Source: Gammaproteobacteria bacterium
GTDB lineage: Bacteria; Pseudomonadota; Gammaproteobacteria; Acidiferrobacterales; Sulfurifustaceae
Assembly (NCBI GenBank): GCA_029863005.1
Contig: JAOTWF010000002.1
Span: 17,545 to 81,544 of the forward strand
Reading direction: 5' to 3'
Length of the DNA stretch: 64,000 nt
Made by a program: the position numbers and the translations under genes. The notes beneath the pieces are model-generated. The model was not told the origin of the DNA and made no database searches. It worked only from the letters and a program-made list of their open reading frames with translations. Within the stretch, counting starts at the first letter, position 1. Every line of letters begins with the position of its first letter. Below are positions 321 through 63,685 of the stretch, in pieces.

Positions 321-3300
321 TTATTTGGATATATTTTTTGGTGCTAAAAGGGCTACGGGAAAATATGAGAGCAGTGAACTTACGGTAAAGAATAATTTCC
401 CTTCCCGCTTAACTGTCTCCACTGGTTCCCCGGTAAGTACATTGATATAGCCGTGCCCGATCTGAGGAGCCTCTATCCGGGTATCCTTCCAGATGGCCGG
501 GCCCAAGGGAGCTGAATGGTTATCTGTGATCAAGCGTGTCAACAAGCGCGGGACGATCACATTTATGGCCTGATCGTTGTGTATGCGGGAAAAAGCGCAT
601 AAATGGTCGATTTTTTCGCCTTCGGGGCTTAATGGCAGGTAATCCCCCTCGGTAAACCATTGGGGATGGTGACGACGCAGCATTAATACCCGCCATATCA
701 GATAAAGCTTGGCGCGCCCGTCCTCCATGGTTTTCAGCAAAGCGTGGACCTGTTCGGGGCGTTTTTCCACGTTAGTCTGTGCCACGGAGATAACCTCATC
801 CAACAGGCGTTGCCGGGTGAAATGGTCCACCGGCCGGCGGTTGTCCGGATCAACCAGGCTCAAATCGAACAATTCACAGCCTTGATAGATATCCGGCACG
901 CCGGGCGAAGTGAGCTTCAGCAGGGTCTGGCTTAACCCATTGAGGTAGCCCAGCGGAGCGATGCGGTGCACGAGAGTCTGAAAATCGTCCAGGAATAGGT
1001 TGCGTTCGAGCGAGTTCAGCAGCCCTTTCACGAAGTCGCATACGCCCTCCTCGTACTCCTTATTCGGGTTGATCCAGCTGGTGTGGGCCTTGGCCTCGCG
1101 GATCGCCTTGAGCATGTAAGCCTCGATACGTTCACGCACGGATTCGAGCTGCGTTGCATTGACCTGACCCGGCGGCCACATGCCCAATAACGTCTGATAG
1201 AACAGGTATTCATCATTTTGACTTGGCGCCCAGCCGGTGGAGAGCCGACGCTTTTTGCTGCGATTGATGCGACTCCAGCGCGCCAGGTGCTCGCGCCATT
1301 CTCCCGGAATCTCTGAAAGTACATTCAGACGGGCACGCACATCCTCGCTGCGTTTGGTATCGTGCGTGGAGGTGCTCAACATCGCATTCGGCCAGCGGCG
1401 CTGGCGTTCCTGGTTGGCATGGTGAAAGGCCGCGGGGGATACGGCGAATCGGCGCAGATCGGCGCCGACCTCATTCAGCGAGACCAGGCGGTTGTAACGG
1501 TAGAACAGCGTGTCCTCCATTCCCTTGGCCATTACCGGCGAGGTGAACTGTTGAAAGCGCATGGTGAACTCCACCACCGCCCTTTTATACCGCTCGCTGC
1601 GCCCTTCCAGATCCTCCAGTAACAGGATGCGGCGTATGAAGTCAAAGATCGAGACATCGGCCGCCGTGCTGCGGCGTTTTGCAGCCGCGATCGCCCAATC
1701 GACATAACGCCGGTCCTCATCTGTGACGCTCTCGCTCGTGACATAAGTTCGGTAAACCGGAAAGCAGGCGACGACCTCGAACAAGGCGGCACGCTGTGCT
1801 GTGTGCGTAAAGTCGCGTGTGTGCCGGTCGGATTCCGAGATGCGATCGAGATAGTTGGCGAGCACGTGCAGCTCGCTTGAGAGTGCGGTACGCATGACGA
1901 GTTTTTTACACTCATATAGTTGGTCATCGAGGTCCGGCTGATTGCCTGCAAAACGACGATAAATGCGATCCATCTCGCGTTCAGACGGTCCGTAGACAAA
2001 CAATCCGTTCACCAGGTTAGTGAATTCATAACCGGTCGTGCCGTGTACCCGCCAGTTGTCCGGTAGCCGTTCGTGGCTGGCGAGAATTTTTTCGGCCACC
2101 ACGAAAAGCGCCGGTTTTGTCTCTGCACGAGAAGCGCTGGCTATTTCTGCGGACGGGGCATTCCCTGACAATGCCAGAAGCCGTTGTTCCAGACGTTCAT
2201 AGTATTGCGCGGGATCGTACAGCCCATCGGGATGGTCGATGCGCAAGCCATCAACCTGACCACGACTAATCATCTCGAAGATTAAGCGATGGGTGGCATC
2301 GAAGACCTCCAGGTTTTCCGTGCGCAGCCCGGCCAGATCATTAATATCAAAAAACCGACGATAATTAATTTCATCGCTCGCTACCCGCCAGTAAGAAAGC
2401 CGAAAGGCCTGAGCCTCCAGCAATTCATGCAATAAATCAAAGCGGGTGGCTTCCGTACCGGCACCATTGAACGTTGCCACGTTTTCCTCGACGAATTGGC
2501 GAATATCCGAATGATCACGTATGAGTTGTGCGAGTCGGCGCTTATGCGCCTCTTTGTCTCGACGCCGTTCCTTGATCCGTGTCTCATAGGTTTGTGAGCG
2601 CTGCGGCAGATTGCGCAGCGCTGTAACCAAGCTCTCGTAATCAGACAACAGGGGGTGCTCGGGGCCGAGTTTCTGTTCCAGGCGCATGTGATCGTGATGC
2701 AGGATCAACGGGAAGGTGTGCGGGTCAATGGGGAGGCGATGCTGGAAATAGCGCACGGCAAACGCTCCCTGCTCCGCTTCGAACACCAGCTTGAGTTCGC
2801 CACTTTCTAACAATTTGCCGTAATGATCGCCAAGTACCGGACACAATACCTTACCTCGCAGATCTTCCTTCGGTGGCTGCCAGTCGATATCGAAAAAATC
2901 AGCATAGGCAGACGATTGACCGTTTTCCAGGACGTCCATCCACCAGTGGTTGTCATCACCCCCCACGCCCATATGGTTTGGAACGATGTCGAGTACCTGC
3001 CCCATCCCATGTTCATGCAGTGCTTGCACGAAGCGATCAAAATCCTCGGGGCTGCCGACCTCCGGATTGAGAGAGTTATGATCGACGATGTCGTAGCCAT
3101 GCTGACTTCCCGCGCGCGCCTTGAGATACGGCGAGGCATAACAATGACTGATGCCAAGACGGTGCAGGTAGGGAACGATGGCGGCCGCTTGGATGAAGGT
3201 GAAGTCGCGGTGGAACTGCAGGCGGTAGGTGGCGGTTAGGGCGGTCGCAGCCGGGCGCTGCCTGGCAGGAGCCGGAGCCGGTGAGCGATGCGCGCGCAAT

Positions 3301-5471
3301 AATGCCGTGAGTTCGCGCCAGCGAGCATCTTTCGGTAAATCCTCGATGTCGAGCATGATCCGGTATCGCCAGTTGGGTCGTTCGGTCGAGGTACCCGGTA
3401 AATTGACCTGGCGCCGCTGTCCCAGCACGTCCTCGAGCTGAACCAGCATGATTTTCGACGGGGCGTGGGCGAGATAATCGTGAATCGCGCACGCCAGTTT
3501 CGGCGTCATCTCCGGGCTCGAAACCGGATGTACGGTAAGACCAGCTGGCAGCAGTTTTTCGCGATCCAGTGCCAGCAGCAGACGTGCGCGATCTTCGGCG
3601 CGCGCGATCACCTGTCGGTTCCGGTCTGCCTCGGATGGATAATGATTGAGCGCCGCGCGTTCCACCAAGTCATCACCATGCCAAAAACCGGCCAAGGTCG
3701 GCAGATCATGAGTGCTGATGGCCACCAGGGCTTGTGCCGGGTAGGTTACCGGCAACCGGAAGTCCCCCTTTTCATCTTTCTCAAAATACAGCAAACGGTA
3801 GGAAAGCACGCCGAGTGCCGCCAGCTTGGTGCGCACCTCTTCCGGAACGGTGCCCAGATCCTCGCCCACCACGAGACAGTTATTACGCTGGCTTTCGAGG
3901 GCGAGAATGCCCAGCAGATCATCGAAAGGATATTGCACATAGGTACCATCAGCCGGTCCACCCTCCTCCGGCACCCAGAACAAGCGCATGAGCCCCATGA
4001 CATGATCGATGCGCAGAGCCCCACTGTTGCGCATGTTCGCGCGGAGAGTGGCGATGTAAGGCGCGTAGGCAGATTCTCGCAATTCGTCCGGATTCCACGG
4101 TGGCAACCCCCAATTTTGTCCGTTAAGGTTGTAATCATCTGGCGGTGCGCCGATGCTCACGCGTGCCACGTAAAGCAATTGGTTCGCCCAGGCCTCGGCG
4201 CCGGCACGGTCCACACTGATCGCGAGATCCTGGTAAAGGCCCACACCCAGTCGCAACTCCATCGAGCGCCGGCCACAGGCGGCCAATTGTTCGTCGGCCT
4301 GCCATTGCAGGAATTGATAGAACTCGACGCGGTCCCGGTGCTCTTCGGCAAATTGTTTGACTTGAAGTGAACGCGGGTCTCGGTACGGCTCGGGCCATAC
4401 CGGCCAGCCCCAGATTGATGGATCCTGTGAATGAAATTTTTCCTGCAAGGCCTCGTACAATGCATGCCGGTGCAGCGCCTCGCCCTCGCGCTCGCAAAAG
4501 GCTGTGAAGGCACGGGCACGTTCCGTGCGACGTGCGGCATGCTGCGTGCGAAAATGTTCGAAAACCTCCTCCAGGACCGGCCACTTCATGGCCGCGACTC
4601 CGGGATAATCAACCAGTTCCGCCGCGCGCAGGGCCTGCAATCGCGCCTGGAAATCCGAGGCGGTAACTTTCCGCCGAGCCGGCTCGCACTCGGCGTACTC
4701 GGGAATCGCTTCGACATCTATATACAGAATGTTCAGGAACAACCGGCTCGAAGGACTGTAGGGACTGGCATGTGGCGGATTGTGGGGAAACAGCGCGTGC
4801 AGCGGATTAAGCCCGATAACGTTGGCGCCGTTGGCGCCACATTCCTCGACGAGTCGGTATAAATCGGTGAAGTCGCCAATTCCCCAGTTGCGCCGCGAAC
4901 GTACAGCGTACAGTTGCACCGCCGGTCCCCAGACTTTCCCATCGCCGCAAAGTGCGGGTGGCTGGAAACAGGCGTTGGGCGCCGCGATGAGCAACATGCT
5001 TGCGGTTTTTTCCCCGTGCCTCGCCTCGAAGCGGTGATAACCGGATGGCAGCGATTCCGTTAGTGTCAAACGGTATCGGGCGATGGCCGTGCCGTCGACG
5101 ACATGCTCTTCCTGGTTTACCAGATCAGTTGGCTGAATTTTTCCCTGCACCATGCCTCCATCTTCGAGGTGCAATGTCCATTCAAATGCTGTACCGGACT
5201 GAGCCCGTGGCAGCATGATGTCGACACTCCACGATGTTGCCGCCGCACGCACCACCTGGCCCGGTGGCAGCAGACGTTGCCAAGCGCGTCGATCAAGCGC
5301 CGCCAGCGCCTCCTGCCGGTGCGCCTCATCTTCAGCGTGGATGCCGAGAGCCATGAGCAAGGCGCTCGCTGATTCCGGGGAGACAGTGTGTGTTTTGCCC
5401 CAGATATCGATGTAGGCAGTATCGATGCCAAAATCACGACAAAGACGTTCGAGCGTTTCCGGATCGTTCAT
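321..5471 (-). CDS. Fusion protein: N-terminal 4-alpha-glucanotransferase (MalQ) + C-terminal maltooligosyltrehalose synthase (TreY)
   Basis: 1716 aa. MalQ motifs (WGPAVQLYAVRSRRNWGIGDFTDL, ALRIDHVMGLMRLFWVP, GEDLGTVP), then a Pro/Ala linker (RSPAPAPARQRPAATA), then TreY motifs (TYRLQFHRDFTF..., YLHRLGISHCYASPYLKARAGSQHGYDIVDH, GLRIDHPDGLYDP, SPGVPDIYQGCEL). Confidence 0.93.
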   Translation of the reverse strand: MNDPETLERLCRDFGIDTAYIDIWGKTHTVSPESASALLMALGIHAEDEAHRQEALAALDRRAWQRLLPPGQVVRAAATSWSVDIMLPRAQSGTAFEWTLHLEDGGMVQGKIQPTDLVNQEEHVVDGTAIARYRLTLTESLPSGYHRFEARHGEKTASMLLIAAPNACFQPPALCGDGKVWGPAVQLYAVRSRRNWGIGDFTDLYRLVEECGANGANVIGLNPLHALFPHNPPHASPYSPSSRLFLNILYIDVEAIPEYAECEPARRKVTASDFQARLQALRAAELVDYPGVAAMKWPVLEEVFEHFRTQHAARRTERARAFTAFCEREGEALHRHALYEALQEKFHSQDPSIWGWPVWPEPYRDPRSLQVKQFAEEHRDRVEFYQFLQWQADEQLAACGRRSMELRLGVGLYQDLAISVDRAGAEAWANQLLYVARVSIGAPPDDYNLNGQNWGLPPWNPDELRESAYAPYIATLRANMRNSGALRIDHVMGLMRLFWVPEEGGPADGTYVQYPFDDLLGILALESQRNNCLVVGEDLGTVPEEVRTKLAALGVLSYRLLYFEKDEKGDFRLPVTYPAQALVAISTHDLPTLAGFWHGDDLVERAALNHYPSEADRNRQVIARAEDRARLLLALDREKLLPAGLTVHPVSSPEMTPKLACAIHDYLAHAPSKIMLVQLEDVLGQRRQVNLPGTSTERPNWRYRIMLDIEDLPKDARWRELTALLRAHRSPAPAPARQRPAATALTATYRLQFHRDFTFIQAAAIVPYLHRLGISHCYASPYLKARAGSQHGYDIVDHNSLNPEVGSPEDFDRFVQALHEHGMGQVLDIVPNHMGVGGDDNHWWMDVLENGQSSAYADFFDIDWQPPKEDLRGKVLCPVLGDHYGKLLESGELKLVFEAEQGAFAVRYFQHRLPIDPHTFPLILHHDHMRLEQKLGPEHPLLSDYESLVTALRNLPQRSQTYETRIKERRRDKEAHKRRLAQLIRDHSDIRQFVEENVATFNGAGTEATRFDLLHELLEAQAFRLSYWRVASDEINYRRFFDINDLAGLRTENLEVFDATHRLIFEMISRGQVDGLRIDHPDGLYDPAQYYERLEQRLLALSGNAPSAEIASASRAETKPALFVVAEKILASHERLPDNWRVHGTTGYEFTNLVNGLFVYGPSEREMDRIYRRFAGNQPDLDDQLYECKKLVMRTALSSELHVLANYLDRISESDRHTRDFTHTAQRAALFEVVACFPVYRTYVTSESVTDEDRRYVDWAIAAAKRRSTAADVSIFDFIRRILLLEDLEGRSERYKRAVVEFTMRFQQFTSPVMAKGMEDTLFYRYNRLVSLNEVGADLRRFAVSPAAFHHANQERQRRWPNAMLSTSTHDTKRSEDVRARLNVLSEIPGEWREHLARWSRINRSKKRRLSTGWAPSQNDEYLFYQTLLGMWPPGQVNATQLESVRERIEAYMLKAIREAKAHTSWINPNKEYEEGVCDFVKGLLNSLERNLFLDDFQTLVHRIAPLGYLNGLSQTLLKLTSPGVPDIYQGCELFDLSLVDPDNRRPVDHFTRQRLLDEVISVAQTNVEKRPEQVHALLKTMEDGRAKLYLIWRVLMLRRHHPQWFTEGDYLPLSPEGEKIDHLCAFSRIHNDQAINVIVPRLLTRLITDNHSAPLGPAIWKDTRIEAPQIGHGYINVLTGEPVETVKREGKLFFTVSSLLSYFPVALLAPKNISK

Positions 5472-7318
5472 GCCCGACCTCCCCTACCGGCATCCAGGAA
5501 CCACCATACCGACCATGGAGGCAAGGTATTATCAAAGTCGGTCGTTGTTCCGGATGGCAGATGATATAGCACTCTTTCGCCCGGCCGGGCGACATCTGTG
5601 ATCGTTTGTTCTCCCATGTTGGCCAACAGGGTCAGCATGGTGCCGTCCGCCAGCTGCCAGTGGGCGCGCAAGCCGCGGTCGTCGAGCGTTTCATATTCAG
5701 CGTTTCTGGCCGGCAGGTTGCGCAACCACGGGACGATTTCGCGCGCGCGCAGGCCTAGCAATTCCCGGTGGAATCGAAACCAAGTCTGTGCCGTTTCGGT
5801 CCGTAAGCTTTCTCGATCAAGACGGGTGCGCAGAAAGGTCTTTTCGTCATTGGGGTCTGGAATGCGAGCACGTGCGTTTTCGTCGCTGAATTCGGGGAAG
5901 CGCGCGAACTCATTACGCCTTCCTTCCGTCACTGCGGTGGCCAGCTCGGGTCCGAAATCACAGAAAAAAAGAAACGGTTGCGACGCTCCCCACTCTTGTC
6001 CCATGAACAGCAATGGTGGCGAAGGCGCCAGCAACAGGATTGCCGTGGCCGCGCGCACTGCGTCTTCCGGCGCAATTCGGGTAATACGCTCGCCCATGGC
6101 GCGGTTGCCGATTTGGTCGTGATTCTGCAAGAAAGACACAAACGCCGTTGCCGGCAGATGGCGCGAAGTTTCTCCGCGACGCGCACCGTGACGGTAACGC
6201 GAAAGATCATCCTGGTAGGCGAAACCCTCGGTAAGACATCGACCCAGATGGTGCACCGGATGGTCGGCAAAATCTTCGTAATATCCACCCTGCTCGCCGG
6301 TAGTCAGCACATGAAGCGCGTGATGGATGTCATCGTTCCACTGGGCGACGTACCAGCGCGGGTGATGAGCAACATCCCTCTCGAGATAACGCGCGGCGTT
6401 GTGTTCGTTTTCGAGCACCAGATGCACTTGGCGTGTAGCGCCCGGTCCGGTCAGTATGGCTCGTGCAATGTCCTGTAGAATATCAGGCTGGGAATCGTCG
6501 ATGATGGCATGCACCGCGTCCAGCCGCAGGCCATCGACGTGATACTCCTCGATCCAGTAAAGCGCATTGTGGATGAAAAAATCACGCACCGGAGCGCTGT
6601 CCGGTCCGTCAAAATTGATGGCAGCGCCCCACGGGGTGTGATGCCGGTCTGTAAAAAAGGCCGGGGCGTACAGATGCAGGAAATTACCATCCGGCCCGAA
6701 ATGGTTGTAAACCACGTCGAGAAACACCATGAGCCCGCGCGCATGGGCGCTTTGGACCAGGTCTTTGAGTTCTTCCGGCGTACCGTAAATGCTGTCCGGC
6801 GCGAACGGCAGCACACCGTCATATCCCCAGTTGCGCCGGCCGGGAAAATCTGAAAGCGGCATCAACTCGATGGCCGTGATGCCCAGATCGACCAGTTCAT
6901 CAAGGCGCTGTTTCACGCCGGCATACGTGCCAGCTTCCGTGAATGTGCCGACGTGCAATTCATAGATCACGGCTTCTTCCCAGGGACGTCCGTGCCATGA
7001 CGCATCTTTCCATTCCCATGCCTCGGGATCGACCGCCTGGGTGGGTCCGTGCACATCCTGTGGCTGGAAGCGCGACACCGGATCGGGAACACGTTGACCG
7101 CCGTCGATGCGATAGCGGTACAGTGTTCCTTGTCTGGCGCGATCCGTGGTAATGCTGAACCAACCGTCTGCTTCCTTCTTCAGTGGCAACAAGGTTTCCT
7201 TGGATGAATCATCCAGGCACAAATCTACGGTGTGAGCGCCTGGCGCCCACAATCGGAAACGCCAGGTCCCGTCCGATTGGGGTTCGGCGCCAAAAGGCAT
7301 GGAATGTCGTCGCTTCAC
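5468..7318 (-). CDS. treZ: Malto-oligosyltrehalose trehalohydrolase (TreZ)
   Basis: GH13 with N-terminal CBM48-like region (FRLWAPGAHTVDL), DVVYNHFGPDGNFLHLYAPAFFTDRHHTPWGAAINFDGPDS; 4-nt overlap with the TreY fusion ORF. Confidence 0.93.
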   Translation of the reverse strand: MKRRHSMPFGAEPQSDGTWRFRLWAPGAHTVDLCLDDSSKETLLPLKKEADGWFSITTDRARQGTLYRYRIDGGQRVPDPVSRFQPQDVHGPTQAVDPEAWEWKDASWHGRPWEEAVIYELHVGTFTEAGTYAGVKQRLDELVDLGITAIELMPLSDFPGRRNWGYDGVLPFAPDSIYGTPEELKDLVQSAHARGLMVFLDVVYNHFGPDGNFLHLYAPAFFTDRHHTPWGAAINFDGPDSAPVRDFFIHNALYWIEEYHVDGLRLDAVHAIIDDSQPDILQDIARAILTGPGATRQVHLVLENEHNAARYLERDVAHHPRWYVAQWNDDIHHALHVLTTGEQGGYYEDFADHPVHHLGRCLTEGFAYQDDLSRYRHGARRGETSRHLPATAFVSFLQNHDQIGNRAMGERITRIAPEDAVRAATAILLLAPSPPLLFMGQEWGASQPFLFFCDFGPELATAVTEGRRNEFARFPEFSDENARARIPDPNDEKTFLRTRLDRESLRTETAQTWFRFHRELLGLRAREIVPWLRNLPARNAEYETLDDRGLRAHWQLADGTMLTLLANMGEQTITDVARPGERVLYHLPSGTTTDFDNTLPPWSVWWFLDAGRGGRA

Positions 7319-8439
7319 ACAGGCTCCGTGGTATGTTTCTCTCGCCGTTGTTCGAGTGCGGCCTGGAGCTTGTCGAACGGCTCGATGAATTTTTTTACTC
7401 CCTCATCTTCCAGTTGCTGTGCCACGGTTTCAAGGTCAATGCCATGTCTGGCCAAACCGGCGATGGCATCGTCGGACTGTTTGAGTTCCTGCTCCAGACG
7501 CAATGCCGGATTGCCATGCTTGCGGTAGGCATTCAGCGTTTCCGGAGGCAGGGTATTGACCGTATCGGGCCCGATCAGGGGCTCAACGTATTTTACGTCG
7601 CTGTAAGTCGGATCCTTGGTGCCAGTACTGGCCCACAACAGCCGCTGCGACTGTGCGCCTTGCCCGGCGAGCCGGTGCCAGCGCTCCGACTTTTCCATCT
7701 CATTCCAGATCTGGTAGGCACGGCGTGCATATGAAATTGCTGCCGTGCCGCGTAGAACAGAAACAGATTTATCCTTGTTGCCGATCGCATCGAGGCGCTT
7801 GTCCACCAGCACATCGATACGGCTGAGGAAAAAGCTCGCCACCGAGGCCACCGAGGACAATGGTATTCCCGCCTTCACGCGATCTTCCAGACCACTTAGC
7901 CAGACATCCAACACTTCACGATAGCGTGCCAGTCCGAACAACAATGTCACATTGACATTAACGCCCTTGGCGATGAGTTGCCTTACCGCCGGCAGCCCTT
8001 CCCGGGTGCCGGGGACTTTGATCATGATATTGGGCCGGTGCAGCCGTTCCCACAGTCGCACCGCTTCCTTCACGGTCTTGGCCGTGTCGTAGGCCAGGTG
8101 CGGCGAGACCTCGATGCTCACATAGCCATCGCGCCCCTTGCTGCTTTCATATACCGGCAGAAACAGGTCGGCCGCGTGCCCGATGTCTTCAAATACGATA
8201 GTTTCATACATTTCCGTGGCATTCTGGGCGCTGAGCGCCAGCCGGGCGATTTCCGCGTCGTAATCCTCGTGGCCGGTGATGGCCTTTTCAAAAATGGCCG
8301 GATTCGACGTTATGCCCGCCAATCCGTCACGCTTGATCAAGTGTGCCAGTTCTCCGCTTTCGAACATTCCACGCTCAATGTAGTCGAGCCAGATGCTCTG
8401 GCCCAGGGACCTGATGCGCAATAAGGGGTTGGTAGTCAT
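7315..8439 (-). CDS. tal: Transaldolase
   Basis: GLAGITSNPAIFEKAI, PNIMIKVPGTREGLPAVRQLIAKGVNVNVTLLFGLARY; ~370-aa subfamily without a Pgi fusion. Confidence 0.93.
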   Translation of the reverse strand: MTTNPLLRIRSLGQSIWLDYIERGMFESGELAHLIKRDGLAGITSNPAIFEKAITGHEDYDAEIARLALSAQNATEMYETIVFEDIGHAADLFLPVYESSKGRDGYVSIEVSPHLAYDTAKTVKEAVRLWERLHRPNIMIKVPGTREGLPAVRQLIAKGVNVNVTLLFGLARYREVLDVWLSGLEDRVKAGIPLSSVASVASFFLSRIDVLVDKRLDAIGNKDKSVSVLRGTAAISYARRAYQIWNEMEKSERWHRLAGQGAQSQRLLWASTGTKDPTYSDVKYVEPLIGPDTVNTLPPETLNAYRKHGNPALRLEQELKQSDDAIAGLARHGIDLETVAQQLEDEGVKKFIEPFDKLQAALEQRREKHTTEPV

Positions 8440-8460: not shown

Positions 8461-9753
8461 TCATGGCTTGCTCACGGTGACCGGCAGTCCCGAGGCAGAC
8501 AGGCGCTGTTGGTTCAAAGAGAATGTCGCTTCGAAGGCGCTGAACAGATCCAGATATTGCTCGATCAATCGGCTCATGAGAAACCGCTGGCGCACGGTTT
8601 CGCGCGCACGACGTCCGATTTCCCCCCGCCGCCCGGGATCCCGCAGCAGTTGTATAAGGCACTGCGCCGCCGTCTCTACGGAAGCAGCGAGGAAACCATT
8701 GATGCCTTCCTCGATCTGGTGGCGAATGCCGCCGCAATTACCCCCGACAACGGCGGCACCCTTCCACATCGCCTCCGTGACGGTAAGTCCGAATCCTTCA
8801 CGTAGCGATTTCTGCATCACCACGGCGGCACGTCGCTGTAGCGCATTTACCAGCGCGCTGTCCTCGGCGGTGAGAATGATGATGCGCTCCTCCTTTCGGG
8901 ACAGGAGAGATTCAAATACTTCTTGTCCTTCAGGATCATCGGTCGCCACGTTGCCCAGCAGCACCAAGGTGGCATCGACCTCCGTGCGTGCGAGATTAAA
9001 TGCCTGGATCACCCCTTCCGGATCCTTCCAGTGGTCAAAGCGCGACACCTGGACCACGATCGGCAGGTCATCGGGTATCCCATAGTGTTCGAGCCGGTCC
9101 TTGATCTCGGCGGCTCCCATCTCGGCGTTCTTGAGCGAGAACGGGTTGATGGCCGGCATGATCGACACCTGTGGCGGGGCGATGCGCTGCGCGTACTCGG
9201 GCAACGACAGGATTACCGCATCGTACTCATTAATGAAACCGCGCAGGTATTCCCAGATCTCGGGATTGGGCTGCGAGAGATCGATATGGCAGCGCCACAT
9301 CCAGGGACAGGTGCGACGGAAATGGCGAATGAGCGGCAGAGGCTGAGGATCGTGGATCACCACCACGTCGTAGCCCGTCAGGTCCATGCGCAACGCATTC
9401 TGGACCACAATTTCTTCGTAGACCTCTTTCTTCAGCTCCGTGAGGTTGATCTTCGCGCCCTGCAGGGCGTTATGGATTTTCTTGGTTACGTTAAAAAAGT
9501 CAGGGCTTCCCTGGATAAGGCGCCAGTCGGCCTTGATCCCGAGGCTGCGCGCGAGCAGCGTGGCCGATGACAGCATCTCGGCCACGCCGCCGCCATAGAA
9601 CGTCGAACTCAGGTGCAGCACACGCAGATCTCGCAGCCGGTGCGCTTTGTGCAGGATCCGCTCCAAGACCTCGTCGCCGATCAGCGGCGCGTAGTCCTCG
9701 ATGTTGACGTGCCAGGAGTGCTTTTTCACGGCGCAACGCCTCAATACGGCCAT
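8461..9753 (-). CDS. GT4-family glycosyltransferase, trehalose glycosyltransferring synthase (TreT)-like; alternative GTG start at 9729
   Basis: [59 protein letters not shown]; domain pattern of TreT. Confidence 0.8.
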
Positions 9754-12155
9754 TTCCAGTCGCGCACTTCGGGCATGTCCTGCCCGTGTCGTGCGATGTA
9801 TTCGCGATGCCGGATGCGCTTGTCACGCATGCGCTGCTTTAGGTATGCGGCGCGGGATCCGAGGGTCGGGACACGATCGATGACATCCGCTACCAAGTGG
9901 AAGCGATCGAGATCGTTGCGCACAACCATGTCGAACGGCGTCGATGTGGTGCCCTCCTCCTTGTATCCACGCACATGCAGATTGGGGTGGTTCGTACGCC
10001 GGTAGGTGAGGCGGTGGATCAGCCAGGGATAGCCGTGATACGCGAAGATGATCGGCTTGTCGGTGGTGAACAGCGTATCGAAATCCTTGTCCGACAGTCC
10101 GTGCGGATGCTCCTCGCGCGGCTGCAGTGTCATGAGATCGACCACGTTGACCACACGCACCTTGAGATCGGGCTGGTGTTTGCGCAACAAGTCCACGGCG
10201 GCCAAAGTTTCCAGCGTGGGCACGTCGCCGGCGCAGGCCATGACCACGTCCGGATCTGCACCTTCGTCGTTGCTGGCCCACTCCCAGATGCCAATGCCCT
10301 TGGTGCAATGCGTCACGGCGGCGTCCATATCAAGCCATTGCGCCTCCGGCTGCTTGCCAGCCACAATCACGTTGATGAAGTCGCGCGAACGTAAGCACTT
10401 GTCGGTCACGTACAGGAGGCTGTTCGCATCTGGCGGCAGATACACTCGGATTACGTCCGCCTTCTTGTTGACCACATGATCGATGAATCCCGGATCCTGA
10501 TGAGAAAAGCCGTTGTGATCCTGGCGCCAGACATGCGAGGTCAGCAGGTAATTAAGCGAAGCGATGGGTTGTCGCCACGGGATTTCGCGCGTGACCTTGA
10601 GCCATTTCGCGTGCTGGTTGAACATCGAATCGACGATGTGGATGAAAGCCTCGTAGCAGGAGAAAAAACCGTGCCGGCCGGTCAGGAGGTAGCCTTCCAA
10701 CCAGCCTTGGCAGGTATGCTCGCTCAGTATTTCCATCACTCGGCCATCGGACGCGAGATGATCGTCTTCGGGCAGGGTATCGGCCAGCCAGGTGCGGCCA
10801 GTAACCTCCAGCAGTGCGCCTAGCCGGTTCGAAGCGGTTTCATCCGGCCCCATAACACGAAAATTACCCCGCTCCAGATTGAGCTTCATGACATCGCGCA
10901 GGAAATTTCCCATGACCCGAGTCGCCTCCGCCCGTGATTGACCCGGTTTAGGGACTTCCACGGCGTAGTCGCGAAAATCCGGCAGGCGCAAATCTTTCAG
11001 CAGGACACCGCCGTTGGCGTGCGGATTCGCGCCCATGCGCCGGGTCCCGGTCGGTGCCAGCTCCGCCAGTTCCGGCCGCAGCGCGCCGATATCATCGAAC
11101 AGTTCCTCCGGGCGGTAGCTTTTCATCCACTGTTCCAGCAGATGGACATGTCCGGGTTTTTCCGCCATTTCGGAAAACGGCACCTGGTGTGAGCGCCAGG
11201 AGTCCTCGGTTTTCTTGCCGTCGACTTCCTTCGGCCCGGTCCAGCCCTTAGGCGAGCGCAAGATGATCATGGGCCAGCGCGGCCTTGTAACAGAACCGGT
11301 GGCGCGCGCCTGGGCCTGAATTGCCTTGATCTCACCAATGACTGTATCGAGGACGAGCGCCATCTGCTGATGCATGAGTTGCGGATCCGCGCCTTCGACA
11401 AAGTACGGTTTGTAACCGTAGCCGATGAAAAGACTTTCAAGCTCATCACGGCTGATGCGCGCCAAGATGGTCGGATTCGCAATCTTGTAGCCGTTCAAAT
11501 GCAGGATCGGCAGCACCGCCCCGTCATGTATCGGATTGAGAAATTTGTTCGAATGCCAGGCAGTTGCGAGCGGCCCGGTTTCGGCTTCGCCGTCACCGAC
11601 CACACAGGCGACGATCAGATCCGGATTGTCAAAGGACGCACCGAAGGCGTGCGAAATAGCGTAGCCGAGTTCACCGCCTTCATGGATAGAGCCGGGCGTT
11701 TCCGGTGCGACATGGCTCGGAATTCCACCCGGAAAGGAAAATTGCCGAAACAGTTTCTTCATTCCCTCGGCGTTTCGAGGAACATCCGGGTACACCTCAC
11801 TGTAGGTTCCCTCGAGCCAGGTGTTTGCGACCAACCCGGGCCCGCCGTGACCGGGACCGGTGATATAAATCATATTAAGATCATCCCTCTTGATGACACG
11901 GTTCAGATGCGCATAAATGAAATTGAGCCCCGGCGTGGTGCCCCAATGGCCCAGCAGCCGCGGTTTGATGTGCTCCAGCGTGAGCGGAACCCGGAGCATT
12001 GGGTTGTCGAGCAGGTAAATCTGCCCGACCGAGAGATAGTTGGCCGCGCGCCAGTAGGCATCGAGACGGCGCAGTTCACCGGAGGAAAGCGGCCCCTCGC
12101 TTTCCCCGCGGGAAGGTTTCATGCGCGCCGGAGTAGCCGTTGCGTGTTGTGTCAT
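9741..12155 (-). CDS. xfp: Xylulose-5-phosphate/fructose-6-phosphate phosphoketolase
   Basis: [76 protein letters not shown] before ATG at 12155 (track ORF extends to 12182). Confidence 0.95.
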
Positions 12156-12182
12156 GTTGCACCTCCATTGTCTGCAGCCCAA

Positions 12183-13313
12183 TCAGGATTCGGCGGTGGC
12201 GGCCAGTGCCGCTTGTGCCAGTATCCGGGCTTCGTTGACAGGAATCACCCAAATCTCCGCGCGGCTGTCCGCGCGGCTGATAAGTTGTTCGTTGCCGGCG
12301 ATGAAGGCATTTTTCCCGGGATCGAGACGGATGCCGGCCCATTTCATATTCTCGAAAATCCGCGCACGGATCTCTGGGGCATTCTCACCCACGCCTCCGC
12401 CGATCAGGACTGCATCCACACCGCCGAGCACGGCTATGTACGCCCCGATGTATTTCCGGATTCGGTAGCAATAGAGATCCACCGCCCGCTGCGCCCGGGG
12501 ATCGCCGGATTCAAGCAATTCGCGCATGTCGCCGCTGAGCCCGGAGACGCCCAGCAAACCGGAGGCGTCATTGAGCAGGCGCTCGGTGTCCTGCGGCGAA
12601 AGGTTTTCCCGTTGCTGCAGGTGGGTGATTAGCCCTGCATCGATATCGCCACTGCGGGTGGCCATGACCAGCCCCTCTAGGGGCGAGAAACCCATGGAGG
12701 TGTCCTTCACGCCGTCCTTGTCCGTGGCCGTGATCGAGCATCCCGCGCCGAGCTGAAGCGAAATGATGCGTTGTTCATGCGCGGCACCGGAGCGCCGTTC
12801 CCGCCAGCGGCGCCACATAGCCTCATGCGCCAGGCCGTGAAAACCATAACGACGCAAGTGATGCCGTTCTGTCATCTCGGCTGGAAGTGCGTAGATTCGT
12901 GCCACTTCCGGAAGCCGTGCGTAATAGGCTGTATCGAAAACGGCCACCTGTTTTACCGCAGATCCCAAAGTTTCGCGACAGGCACGCATCCATTGCAAGG
13001 CTGCCGGATTATGCAATGGCGCGAGCGGCGCGAGTCTGTCAATTTCCGCTTCCACCTCGGGGTTGATCAAAGTGGGGAATTGCAAGTTGTCACCACCGTG
13101 CACCACGCGGTGCGCGACAAGAGCGAATCCGGAGAGAGCGTGCGTCTGAATAAACTGACGCAATACTTCCGTTGCTTCCGTTGCCTTGTCCGAACTCGAC
13201 TCATGACGCGCATATGCTATCTGCTCCATCCGGTTTTCCGCTGCTGTTTCAAAGGCAACGAGACGGATGGACGAACTCCCGGCATTGACCGTCAGAATCT
13301 TCACCTTCTGCAT
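12183..13313 (-). CDS. ackA: Acetate kinase
   Basis: VKILTVNAGSSSIRLV, FDTAYYARLPEVARIYALP, DTSMGFSPLEGLVMATRSGDIDAGLI; likely start MQKVKIL at 13313. Confidence 0.93.
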   Translation of the reverse strand: MQKVKILTVNAGSSSIRLVAFETAAENRMEQIAYARHESSSDKATEATEVLRQFIQTHALSGFALVAHRVVHGGDNLQFPTLINPEVEAEIDRLAPLAPLHNPAALQWMRACRETLGSAVKQVAVFDTAYYARLPEVARIYALPAEMTERHHLRRYGFHGLAHEAMWRRWRERRSGAAHEQRIISLQLGAGCSITATDKDGVKDTSMGFSPLEGLVMATRSGDIDAGLITHLQQRENLSPQDTERLLNDASGLLGVSGLSGDMRELLESGDPRAQRAVDLYCYRIRKYIGAYIAVLGGVDAVLIGGGVGENAPEIRARIFENMKWAGIRLDPGKNAFIAGNEQLISRADSRAEIWVIPVNEARILAQAALAATAES

Positions 13314-13363
13314 TCCTTGGTGCGCCGCCACATATGCCGTGTGCTTTCGTCAGGCTAAAAAAC

Positions 13364-13404
13364 ACTATACCGCGGCTGTTTTACGGGTTCTTGATATCGA
13401 TCAA
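13364..13404 (-). promoter_or_regulatory. Putative FNR/ANR-dependent class II promoter for ackA-xfp (FNR box 13391-13404; -10 TATAGT at 13364-13369)
   Basis: Perfect TTGAT-ATCG-ATCAA inverted repeat followed on the minus strand after 21 bp by TATAGT, giving a box centre near -41 relative to a predicted start around 13357; ackA ATG at 13313. Confidence 0.6.
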
Positions 13405-13568
13405 TTCATTCAACTATTACTCAGTCGGGTGCTGAATCGCGAAAACGTTCAGCCGTATCCGCGGATTCACTTGATTGCCAACCGCCCGCCGTGCCAGTTG
13501 CGCATTGTCTTGGCTCTGTTCACCGTGGACAAGCCATGGCTAGCGGTTGGGCGCGCAGACATGAAAAA

Positions 13569-13925
13569 TTATTTCCGGTGTCTGGCAGCTGGCTTCCAGG
13601 GCCAGTGCCCTTCGATACCGTACTCGAGGGTGAAACTGAGAAAGGCGCGTATCAGTACGATCACGCCCAATACTGCCACGCTCTCAAACGAATGCGAAAC
13701 TGCCACGGTGCGGATGATGTCCCCGGCGATCAGGAACTCGAGCCCCAGGATAATCGCCTTTCCCAATTTGCGACGGTACTCGCCATACACGGCGGATTTG
13801 TCGGCTGCATGCCACTGCGTGAACACCCACACCGTCGCCAGCGCGAAACCCGCCAGGATCGTGAAAACCCCGACCGCTTCCATGATTACCGCTGATTGGC
13901 CAAACAGTTCCTTGAGTGTATGCAT
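13569..13925 (-). CDS. DUF1622-type small integral membrane protein
   Basis: MHTLKELFGQSAVIMEAVGVFTILAGF...YRRKLGKAIILGLEFLIAGDIIRTV; start set at 13925. Confidence 0.75.
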   Translation of the reverse strand: MHTLKELFGQSAVIMEAVGVFTILAGFALATVWVFTQWHAADKSAVYGEYRRKLGKAIILGLEFLIAGDIIRTVAVSHSFESVAVLGVIVLIRAFLSFTLEYGIEGHWPWKPAARHRK

Positions 13926-62308: not shown

Positions 62309-63592
62309 ATGGTCGATATAGGAAAAAAACGAATTGATGTCATAGATCTTAGGCCGGGAATGTATATCTCCCAGCTGGATCGTCCCTGGCTGGAATCTCC
62401 TTTCCTGTTTCAGGGCTTCGAGCTGCGCACGGACGAAGAAATGGACCTGCTCAGGAAACACTGCAAATACGTCATCATCGATACCGCCCTGGGGCTTGAT
62501 GTGTTGCCCTTAAGCAACCGCGTCGAATACGAATCGCGGATGCGCGCCATCCAGGTGGAGGAAGACCAGCTAACGGCAAAGATCAGGGAACTGGCCGATT
62601 CCCCCGGCAGGACGCGGACTCGACCGGCCTACGAAGACCAGGCCCCGCTGGAGCAGGAAATCCCCCGCGCCCGTGAAATTGAATCCAGCGCACGAGATGT
62701 GATGAACGATATGTTGCGCAATATTCAAAAGGGCAAGGAATTCAGCATGGAGCTCGTCACCAAGGTGGTGACCAACATGGTTAATAGCATGATCCGCAAT
62801 CCGGATGCCATGGTGTGTTTGACTTACATGCGCAAGATCAGCGAATACACGGCGCTGCACAGCATCCGCACCGCCATTCTTGGTATCGCGTTCGGCCGCC
62901 ACCTGGTTTTCACCAAGGATCAATTGATCGAACTGGGGGTAGGCCTGATGCTGCACGATATCGGCATGCTGAGGATCCCCAAGAATATAATCGAGAAGCC
63001 CTCCGGCCTCGACGCAGCGGAATTCGAAATTATGAAACGGCACGTGGGCTGGGGTGTGGCGCTGATCAAAAATAATGGTGGGATCCCCCCATTCGCGATG
63101 CAGGTCGTGCAACAACATCACGAGCGCCATGACGGCGAAGGCTATCCCGTGCGCCTGAAAGGCGACGCCATCAGCCAGGTGGGATACATCGCCTCCATCG
63201 TCGACGTGTACGACGCCGTGACCAGCGACCGTATCTACTCCGGCGGCATGTCAGCCGAAGAGGCACTGAAACGCATGTACGAATGGCGGGAAAAAGATTT
63301 TCACGCCGAGCTGGTGGAGGATTTCATCCGTTGCATGGGAATTTTCCCCATCGGTTCTTTGGTGGAACTCAGTACGGGTAGCGTCGGGGTCGTGATCTCG
63401 ATCAACCGTGCCCGCCGCTTGAAGCCCAAGGTGGCGCTGGTGTTGACCGCCGACAAAAAACCCTACAGTCACAAACTTGTTACCGACCTGATGGAGCACA
63501 CGGACGGCAAAGGGCAGGAAATCAAGATATCGCGCGTGCTCCCGGTCGGCTCGTACGGCATCCATCCTATGGACCACATCGTGCGGATATAG
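62309..63592 (+). CDS. HD-GYP domain protein with N-terminal DUF3391 (putative cyclic-di-GMP phosphodiesterase)
   Basis: DLRPGMYISQLDRPWLESPFLFQGFELRTDEEMDLLRKHCKYVIID; HDIGMLRIPKNI, QHHERHDGEGYPVRLKGDAIS. Confidence 0.93.
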   Translation: MVDIGKKRIDVIDLRPGMYISQLDRPWLESPFLFQGFELRTDEEMDLLRKHCKYVIIDTALGLDVLPLSNRVEYESRMRAIQVEEDQLTAKIRELADSPGRTRTRPAYEDQAPLEQEIPRAREIESSARDVMNDMLRNIQKGKEFSMELVTKVVTNMVNSMIRNPDAMVCLTYMRKISEYTALHSIRTAILGIAFGRHLVFTKDQLIELGVGLMLHDIGMLRIPKNIIEKPSGLDAAEFEIMKRHVGWGVALIKNNGGIPPFAMQVVQQHHERHDGEGYPVRLKGDAISQVGYIASIVDVYDAVTSDRIYSGGMSAEEALKRMYEWREKDFHAELVEDFIRCMGIFPIGSLVELSTGSVGVVISINRARRLKPKVALVLTADKKPYSHKLVTDLMEHTDGKGQEIKISRVLPVGSYGIHPMDHIVRI

Positions 63593-63685
63593 AATGGGCG
63601 GCACGCTCTTTGAGATTTATCAATTAATAATCTTTCCGGGTACAATCAGATCCGGATCGGGCTGACGGCGCGGGGGAGGAATAGC

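Follow-up and report, generated by a model that had tools for sequence, protein, structure and literature searches.

A conserved FNR-type box with class II promoter geometry upstream of ackA-xfp in Acidiferrobacterales-like bacteria

Does the palindrome lying upstream of ackA and xfp form part of an oxygen-responsive promoter, and, if so, which metabolic route would it control? We addressed this question in the window—i.e., the whole 64-kb stretch of DNA analyzed—and in the genome to which it belongs, an Acidiferrobacterales-like MAG of 2.45 Mb (95% complete) from a relative of sulfur oxidizers. The FNR-type box TTGATATCGATCAA, at positions 13391–13404, is composed of palindromic half-sites and matches TTGATN4ATCAA exactly and, being palindromic, on both strands. 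The minus strand reads TTGATCGATATCAA (13404–13391), followed by 21 nt (13390–13370) and the −10 hexamer TATAGT (13369–13364), so that the position of these elements upstream of ackA-xfp agrees to the base with the original prediction. Taking the transcription start predicted from the −10 position (13357 on the minus strand, ± 1–2 nt; 7 nt past the hexamer), the box centre (13397.5) falls at −40.5, and a start one base later would place it at −41.5; both are class II positions. The −35 position is occupied by AAGAAC instead of a −35 hexamer, and scanning positions 13250–13700 revealed neither a consensus sigma-70 promoter nor a terminator. The absence of a consensus sigma-70 promoter and of a −35 element is expected of an activator-dependent promoter. 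Relative to the predicted start, the site thus displays the arrangement that characterizes class II promoters—a box ~21–22 bp from the −10 hexamer without a good −35—in line with the geometry proposed originally. In E. coli, 19 of the 23 FNR-activated promoters with a known start have their site at −41.5 ± 4 (PMC3688515). The same combination of TTGATN4ATCAA near −41.5, a −10 element and an absent or replaced −35 is found in the class II FNR promoters of narG, dmsA and focA-pflB in E. coli and of ccoN and uspA in Sphingopyxis (PMC3688515; PMC7713065). Unlike these cases, the target here is ackA-xfp together with glucan/trehalose genes, and the start is a predicted one. We assign a probability of roughly 80% to the reading that FNR genuinely activates this site as a class II promoter, which would drive ackA-xfp and, in this genome, by read-through, the genes that follow in the same direction.

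A close ackA was present in 14 of the 57 genomes of the order, which constituted the comparison set. Half of them (7/14, window genome included) carry a perfect box no more than ~150 bp ahead of ackA; among the seven boxes, five different N4 cores occur (CGAT, GGAC, GCGT, GAGG and GGAG). The −10 element lies 21 bp from the box in six of the boxed genomes (TATAGT or TATCGT) and 22 bp away in the remaining one (TATAAG). An eighth genome has a one-mismatch box with the identical 21-bp spacing and TATCGT, and a ninth has a one-mismatch box without a clear −10. In the other five, three of them from the genus of the window genome, no box with ≤1 mismatch was found in the available ackA-region sequence; the same was true ahead of xfp in loci ordered xfp-ackA. 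The nearest named relative, Sulfuricaulis sp. S40-5 (order Acidiferrobacterales), shares 79% ackA identity and has a perfect box. None of 15 ackA loci outside the order had a perfect box, and the promoter is therefore a lineage trait. Since four of the seven boxed genomes come from one genus, the number of independent lineages is ~3. When upstream regions were simulated with a Markov model, perfect boxes arose at a frequency of 1.5e-4, and a box plus TAnnnT at 20–22 bp in 1 of 280,000. The retention of box and −10 spacing while the N4 core varies represents a phylogenetic footprint of a class II FNR promoter, and the expectation that the palindrome would be kept in relatives was borne out in six genomes besides the window genome, with differing N4 cores. 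Separately, we observed that the ackA genes of G004, G007 and G008, all from the genus of the window genome, are 57–60% identical to window positions 12183–13304 and have no box, with FNR proteins 78–83% identical. Such low ackA identity within a genus would mean that the gene either evolves fast or was exchanged.

We also examined the distribution of boxes by pattern searches of the genome plus 176 kb of sequence. The genome holds 22 perfect TTGATN4ATCAA boxes, as compared with 0.9 expected under an i.i.d. model or 2.9 under a first-order Markov model; the reversed control pattern and a palindrome of the same composition (TTGTAN4TACAA) had no matches. All but one of the boxes (21/22) lie outside predicted genes, as called with a simple codon model that is rough around the other boxes. 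Within the window, the perfect box is unique, and five sites have ≤1 mismatch (shuffles at this threshold: mean 1.98, sd 1.42). While one to three perfect boxes would be expected in a genome of this size anyway, the overwhelming genome-wide excess at intergenic positions, together with the conservation of position, spacing and −10 across several genera despite changing N4 cores, makes a chance palindrome extremely improbable. Around the 21 other boxes (both strands), TAnnnT occurred 14 times at the four spacings of 20–23 bp vs. 17 times at 26 other spacings—a ~five-fold enrichment from which class II geometry can be taken to be common in this genome. One of the one-mismatch sites, TTGAGATTTATCAA at 63610–63623, lies shortly past an ORF end at 63592 and is a possible further FNR site.

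Several of the 22 boxes adjoin FNR-type target genes. The neighbours include genes for a COX1-type oxidase subunit (PF00115), a universal stress protein (usp), a membrane H+-pyrophosphatase, a DsrC-like protein, a Tll0287-like protein, Hsp20, a PRPP-synthetase-like protein and another Crp/Fnr regulator; in Sphingopyxis, Fnr directly controls oxidase and usp genes through boxes at −41.5 (PMC7713065). Some of these sites deserve mention in their own right. A perfect box (L135:934-947, G000:C123) lies 94 bp ahead of the gene for the membrane H+-pyrophosphatase (PF03030), a hint that energy saving via pyrophosphate under anoxia belongs to the same regulon. Perfect boxes ahead of a DsrC-like and a DsrE-like gene (L125:2501-2514 and L132:2501-2514) suggest that these sulfur-carrier proteins are part of the FNR-type regulon. 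Moreover, three perfect boxes fall within ~4 kb at L133:2501, 3114 and 6568 (G000:C115), where Hsp20, DUF6763, PRPP-synthetase-like and phosphoribosyltransferase genes make up a compact anoxia-type stress cluster.

Which regulator would read the box? The original prediction called for an FNR regulator, and one is encoded in the genome: the C123 protein scores 270.4 bits against the NCBIfam Fnr model (cut-off, 228), and its alignment to the solved FNR 5cvr matched C-x2-C-x5-C, the VCEIP cysteine and the ETVSR helix. Overall, four Crp-family HTH proteins score above the Pfam cut-off. Two proteins on C46, a cysteine-bearing one of 245 aa and another of 234 aa, have FNR-like E-T-x-S-R recognition helices and fall below the Fnr cut-off, and they are the main uncertainty over which regulator acts at the box. 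DNR-type proteins share the FNR box, the sequence of which cannot tell FNR from DNR, and a perfect box precedes the gene of the 245-aa protein. Accordingly, one of the C46 proteins might be the main reader, with nitric oxide/nitrate or a second sensor providing the signal in place of oxygen via FNR. However, no protein other than that of C123 reaches the Fnr cut-off, and FNR was found in every boxed relative; in the sister genome G002 (87% complete), box and FNR are both present, with no second Fnr-like match at E ≤ 1e-20. Control mainly by a C46 protein is hence unlikely, and FNR remains our preferred regulator. The presence of FNR was rejected as a discriminator of boxed and unboxed relatives, with an Fnr-type match in 56 of 60. 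We further noted that the second FNR-like protein (L006:1441-2178, G000:C46) bears an N-terminal cysteine cluster, CSCEVKACVLC, and an EETVSR helix, and that its gene, preceded by the perfect box, has molybdenum-cofactor-type genes nearby.

The genes behind the promoter, from ackA through malQ-treY, all lie on the minus strand with overlaps or gaps of no more than ~21 bp. The first, ackA (12183–13313), encodes an acetate/propionate family kinase (TIGR00016, 325.9 bits; cut-off, 293.4). Its start had been assigned to the ATG at 13313, a codon that is indeed present; however, the Shine-Dalgarno-like AAGGA (13318–13314) abuts this ATG and stands 9 nt from a GTG at 13304, the likelier start because AAGGA-N9-GTGAA is kept in G002. 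It is followed by xfp, coding for phosphoketolase (9741–12182; NF003619, 1532 bits); a gene for a TreT-like trehalose synthase/phosphorylase-type glycosyltransferase (8461–9753; PF21269 TreT_GT1, not reaching the threshold set for Thermococcales TreT); tal, transaldolase (7315–8439; TIGR00876, 343.7; cut-off, 233.75); treZ, malto-oligosyltrehalose trehalohydrolase (5468–7318; TIGR02402, 705; cut-off, 538.8); and a malQ-treY fusion for 4-alpha-glucanotransferase and malto-oligosyltrehalose synthase (321–5471; NF011077, 2325.7; cut-off, 2148). Owing to this colinearity, the promoter should feed all of them. Upstream, a gene for a DUF1622 membrane protein (13569–13925, minus strand; PF07784) separates this half of the cluster from the glgX half. 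As no terminator is visible before the promoter, its activity probably supplements transcription that reads through from the direction of glgX.

The phosphoketolase of the window contains all eight residues of the ATP-inhibition motif PWX2HX3YRX7HXRX31R, defined for the Synechococcus Xpk (PMC10365998) and also present in the Xfp of most relatives. A phosphotransacetylase was not found in the 95% complete genome, where the single weak PF01515 match sits in a PlsX-type gene, and AckA, with ATP formation, is thus the likely outlet for acetyl-phosphate. Both the Xfp motif and the failure to find Pta fit a conversion of acetyl-phosphate to ATP under anoxia. According to the mechanism that we propose, FNR would regain its [4Fe-4S] cluster and dimerize as oxygen falls; the dimer would then bind the box, situated ~41 nt before the start, and bring sigma-70 RNA polymerase to the −10-only promoter. 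Phosphoketolase would split xylulose-5-P or fructose-6-P to yield acetyl-phosphate, from which AckA would form ATP and acetate. This energy route, leading from sugar phosphates to acetate and ATP, would very probably be switched on when oxygen runs out. The box, its spacing and conservation, an FNR bearing the appropriate residues, the regulon context, the Xfp motif and the failure to find Pta are sequence observations, and we infer FNR occupancy, the start site, anoxic activation, the length of the operon and glucan as the carbon source. Given the ATP-inhibition motif of Xfp, two gates probably act on the route: synthesis at low oxygen and activity at low ATP.

Where would the sugar phosphates come from? 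The distal half of the cluster had been predicted to form an anoxic glucan-to-ATP route, a proposal that holds in part: the genes are tightly packed on one strand, and in g16, a sister genus, ackA-xfp is followed under the same conserved promoter by a gene for glucan phosphorylase (PF00343 with DUF3417; L140:10730-13285; also L144 and L147), but conservation of the box does not extend to treT, treZ and malQ-treY. Where longer sequence is available for relatives, what is conserved is box-ackA-xfp, and these three genes were found beside ackA-xfp in the window genome only. The glgX-ackA-xfp synteny is common to the window and G002, the contig of which ends inside xfp. That the trehalose genes do not travel with the box would agree with a different role for a real box, in which the operon serves mainly to divert Calvin-cycle sugar phosphates or to balance redox instead of consuming stored glucan, with osmoprotective trehalose genes incidentally co-transcribed. 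RuBisCO is present in the genome, and in cyanobacteria a drop in ATP leads Xpk to divert intermediates of the Calvin cycle (PMC10365998). Against this interpretation stand the g16 glucan phosphorylase located after xfp behind the same promoter, and the location of the window operon, which adjoins glgX, glgB and treS. We consider diversion of Calvin-cycle intermediates a sizeable possibility, albeit well short of an even chance. Glucan enzymes thus occur behind the promoter in two forms, which supports the glucan direction without proving it; making or turning over trehalose is an equally plausible role for TreY, TreZ and TreT. Returning to the reading based on stored glucan, we tentatively propose, with confidence only a little below even, a doubly gated emergency fermentation in Acidiferrobacterales-type bacteria. 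It would combine FNR-activated xfp-ackA, an enzyme kept inactive by ATP, genus-specific glucan enzymes (trehalose/malQ here, phosphorylase in g16) and an FNR-boxed H+-pyrophosphatase.

Elements of such a system have precedents. FNR/Anr control of ackA-pta is known from E. coli, with an FNR site at −74.5, and from P. aeruginosa (Anr) (PMC3688515; PMC8575079), and the P. aeruginosa phosphoketolase PA3613 is among the anaerobically raised genes (PMC8575079). The present locus resembles these cases in the oxygen-limited induction, which we infer here, of a route from acetyl-phosphate to acetate and ATP; unlike the FNR/Anr-controlled ackA-pta, it has xfp instead of pta, a class II box position and a single operon. 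It likewise resembles the Xpk-Ack pathway of Synechococcus elongatus PCC7942, an ATP source during anaerobic dark survival, in pairing Xfp with Ack and in the identical eight-residue ATP-inhibition motif (PMC10365998). Control by ATP at the enzyme level has been described for that pathway (PMC10365998), to which an FNR-type promoter is added here. We found no report of FNR-controlled xfp-ackA in Acidiferrobacterales in the open-access papers searched. The type of switch and the type of pathway are each known; what is new is the placement of xfp in one class II operon, together with downstream glucan enzymes that differ between two lineages. The locus provides a concrete, testable link of oxygen sensing to an acetate/ATP route in bacteria resembling chemolithoautotrophs, whose anoxic use of stored sugar is poorly documented in the literature searched. 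If the doubly gated fermentation proves true, these lithoautotrophs would survive anoxia through acetate fermentation of stored sugar.
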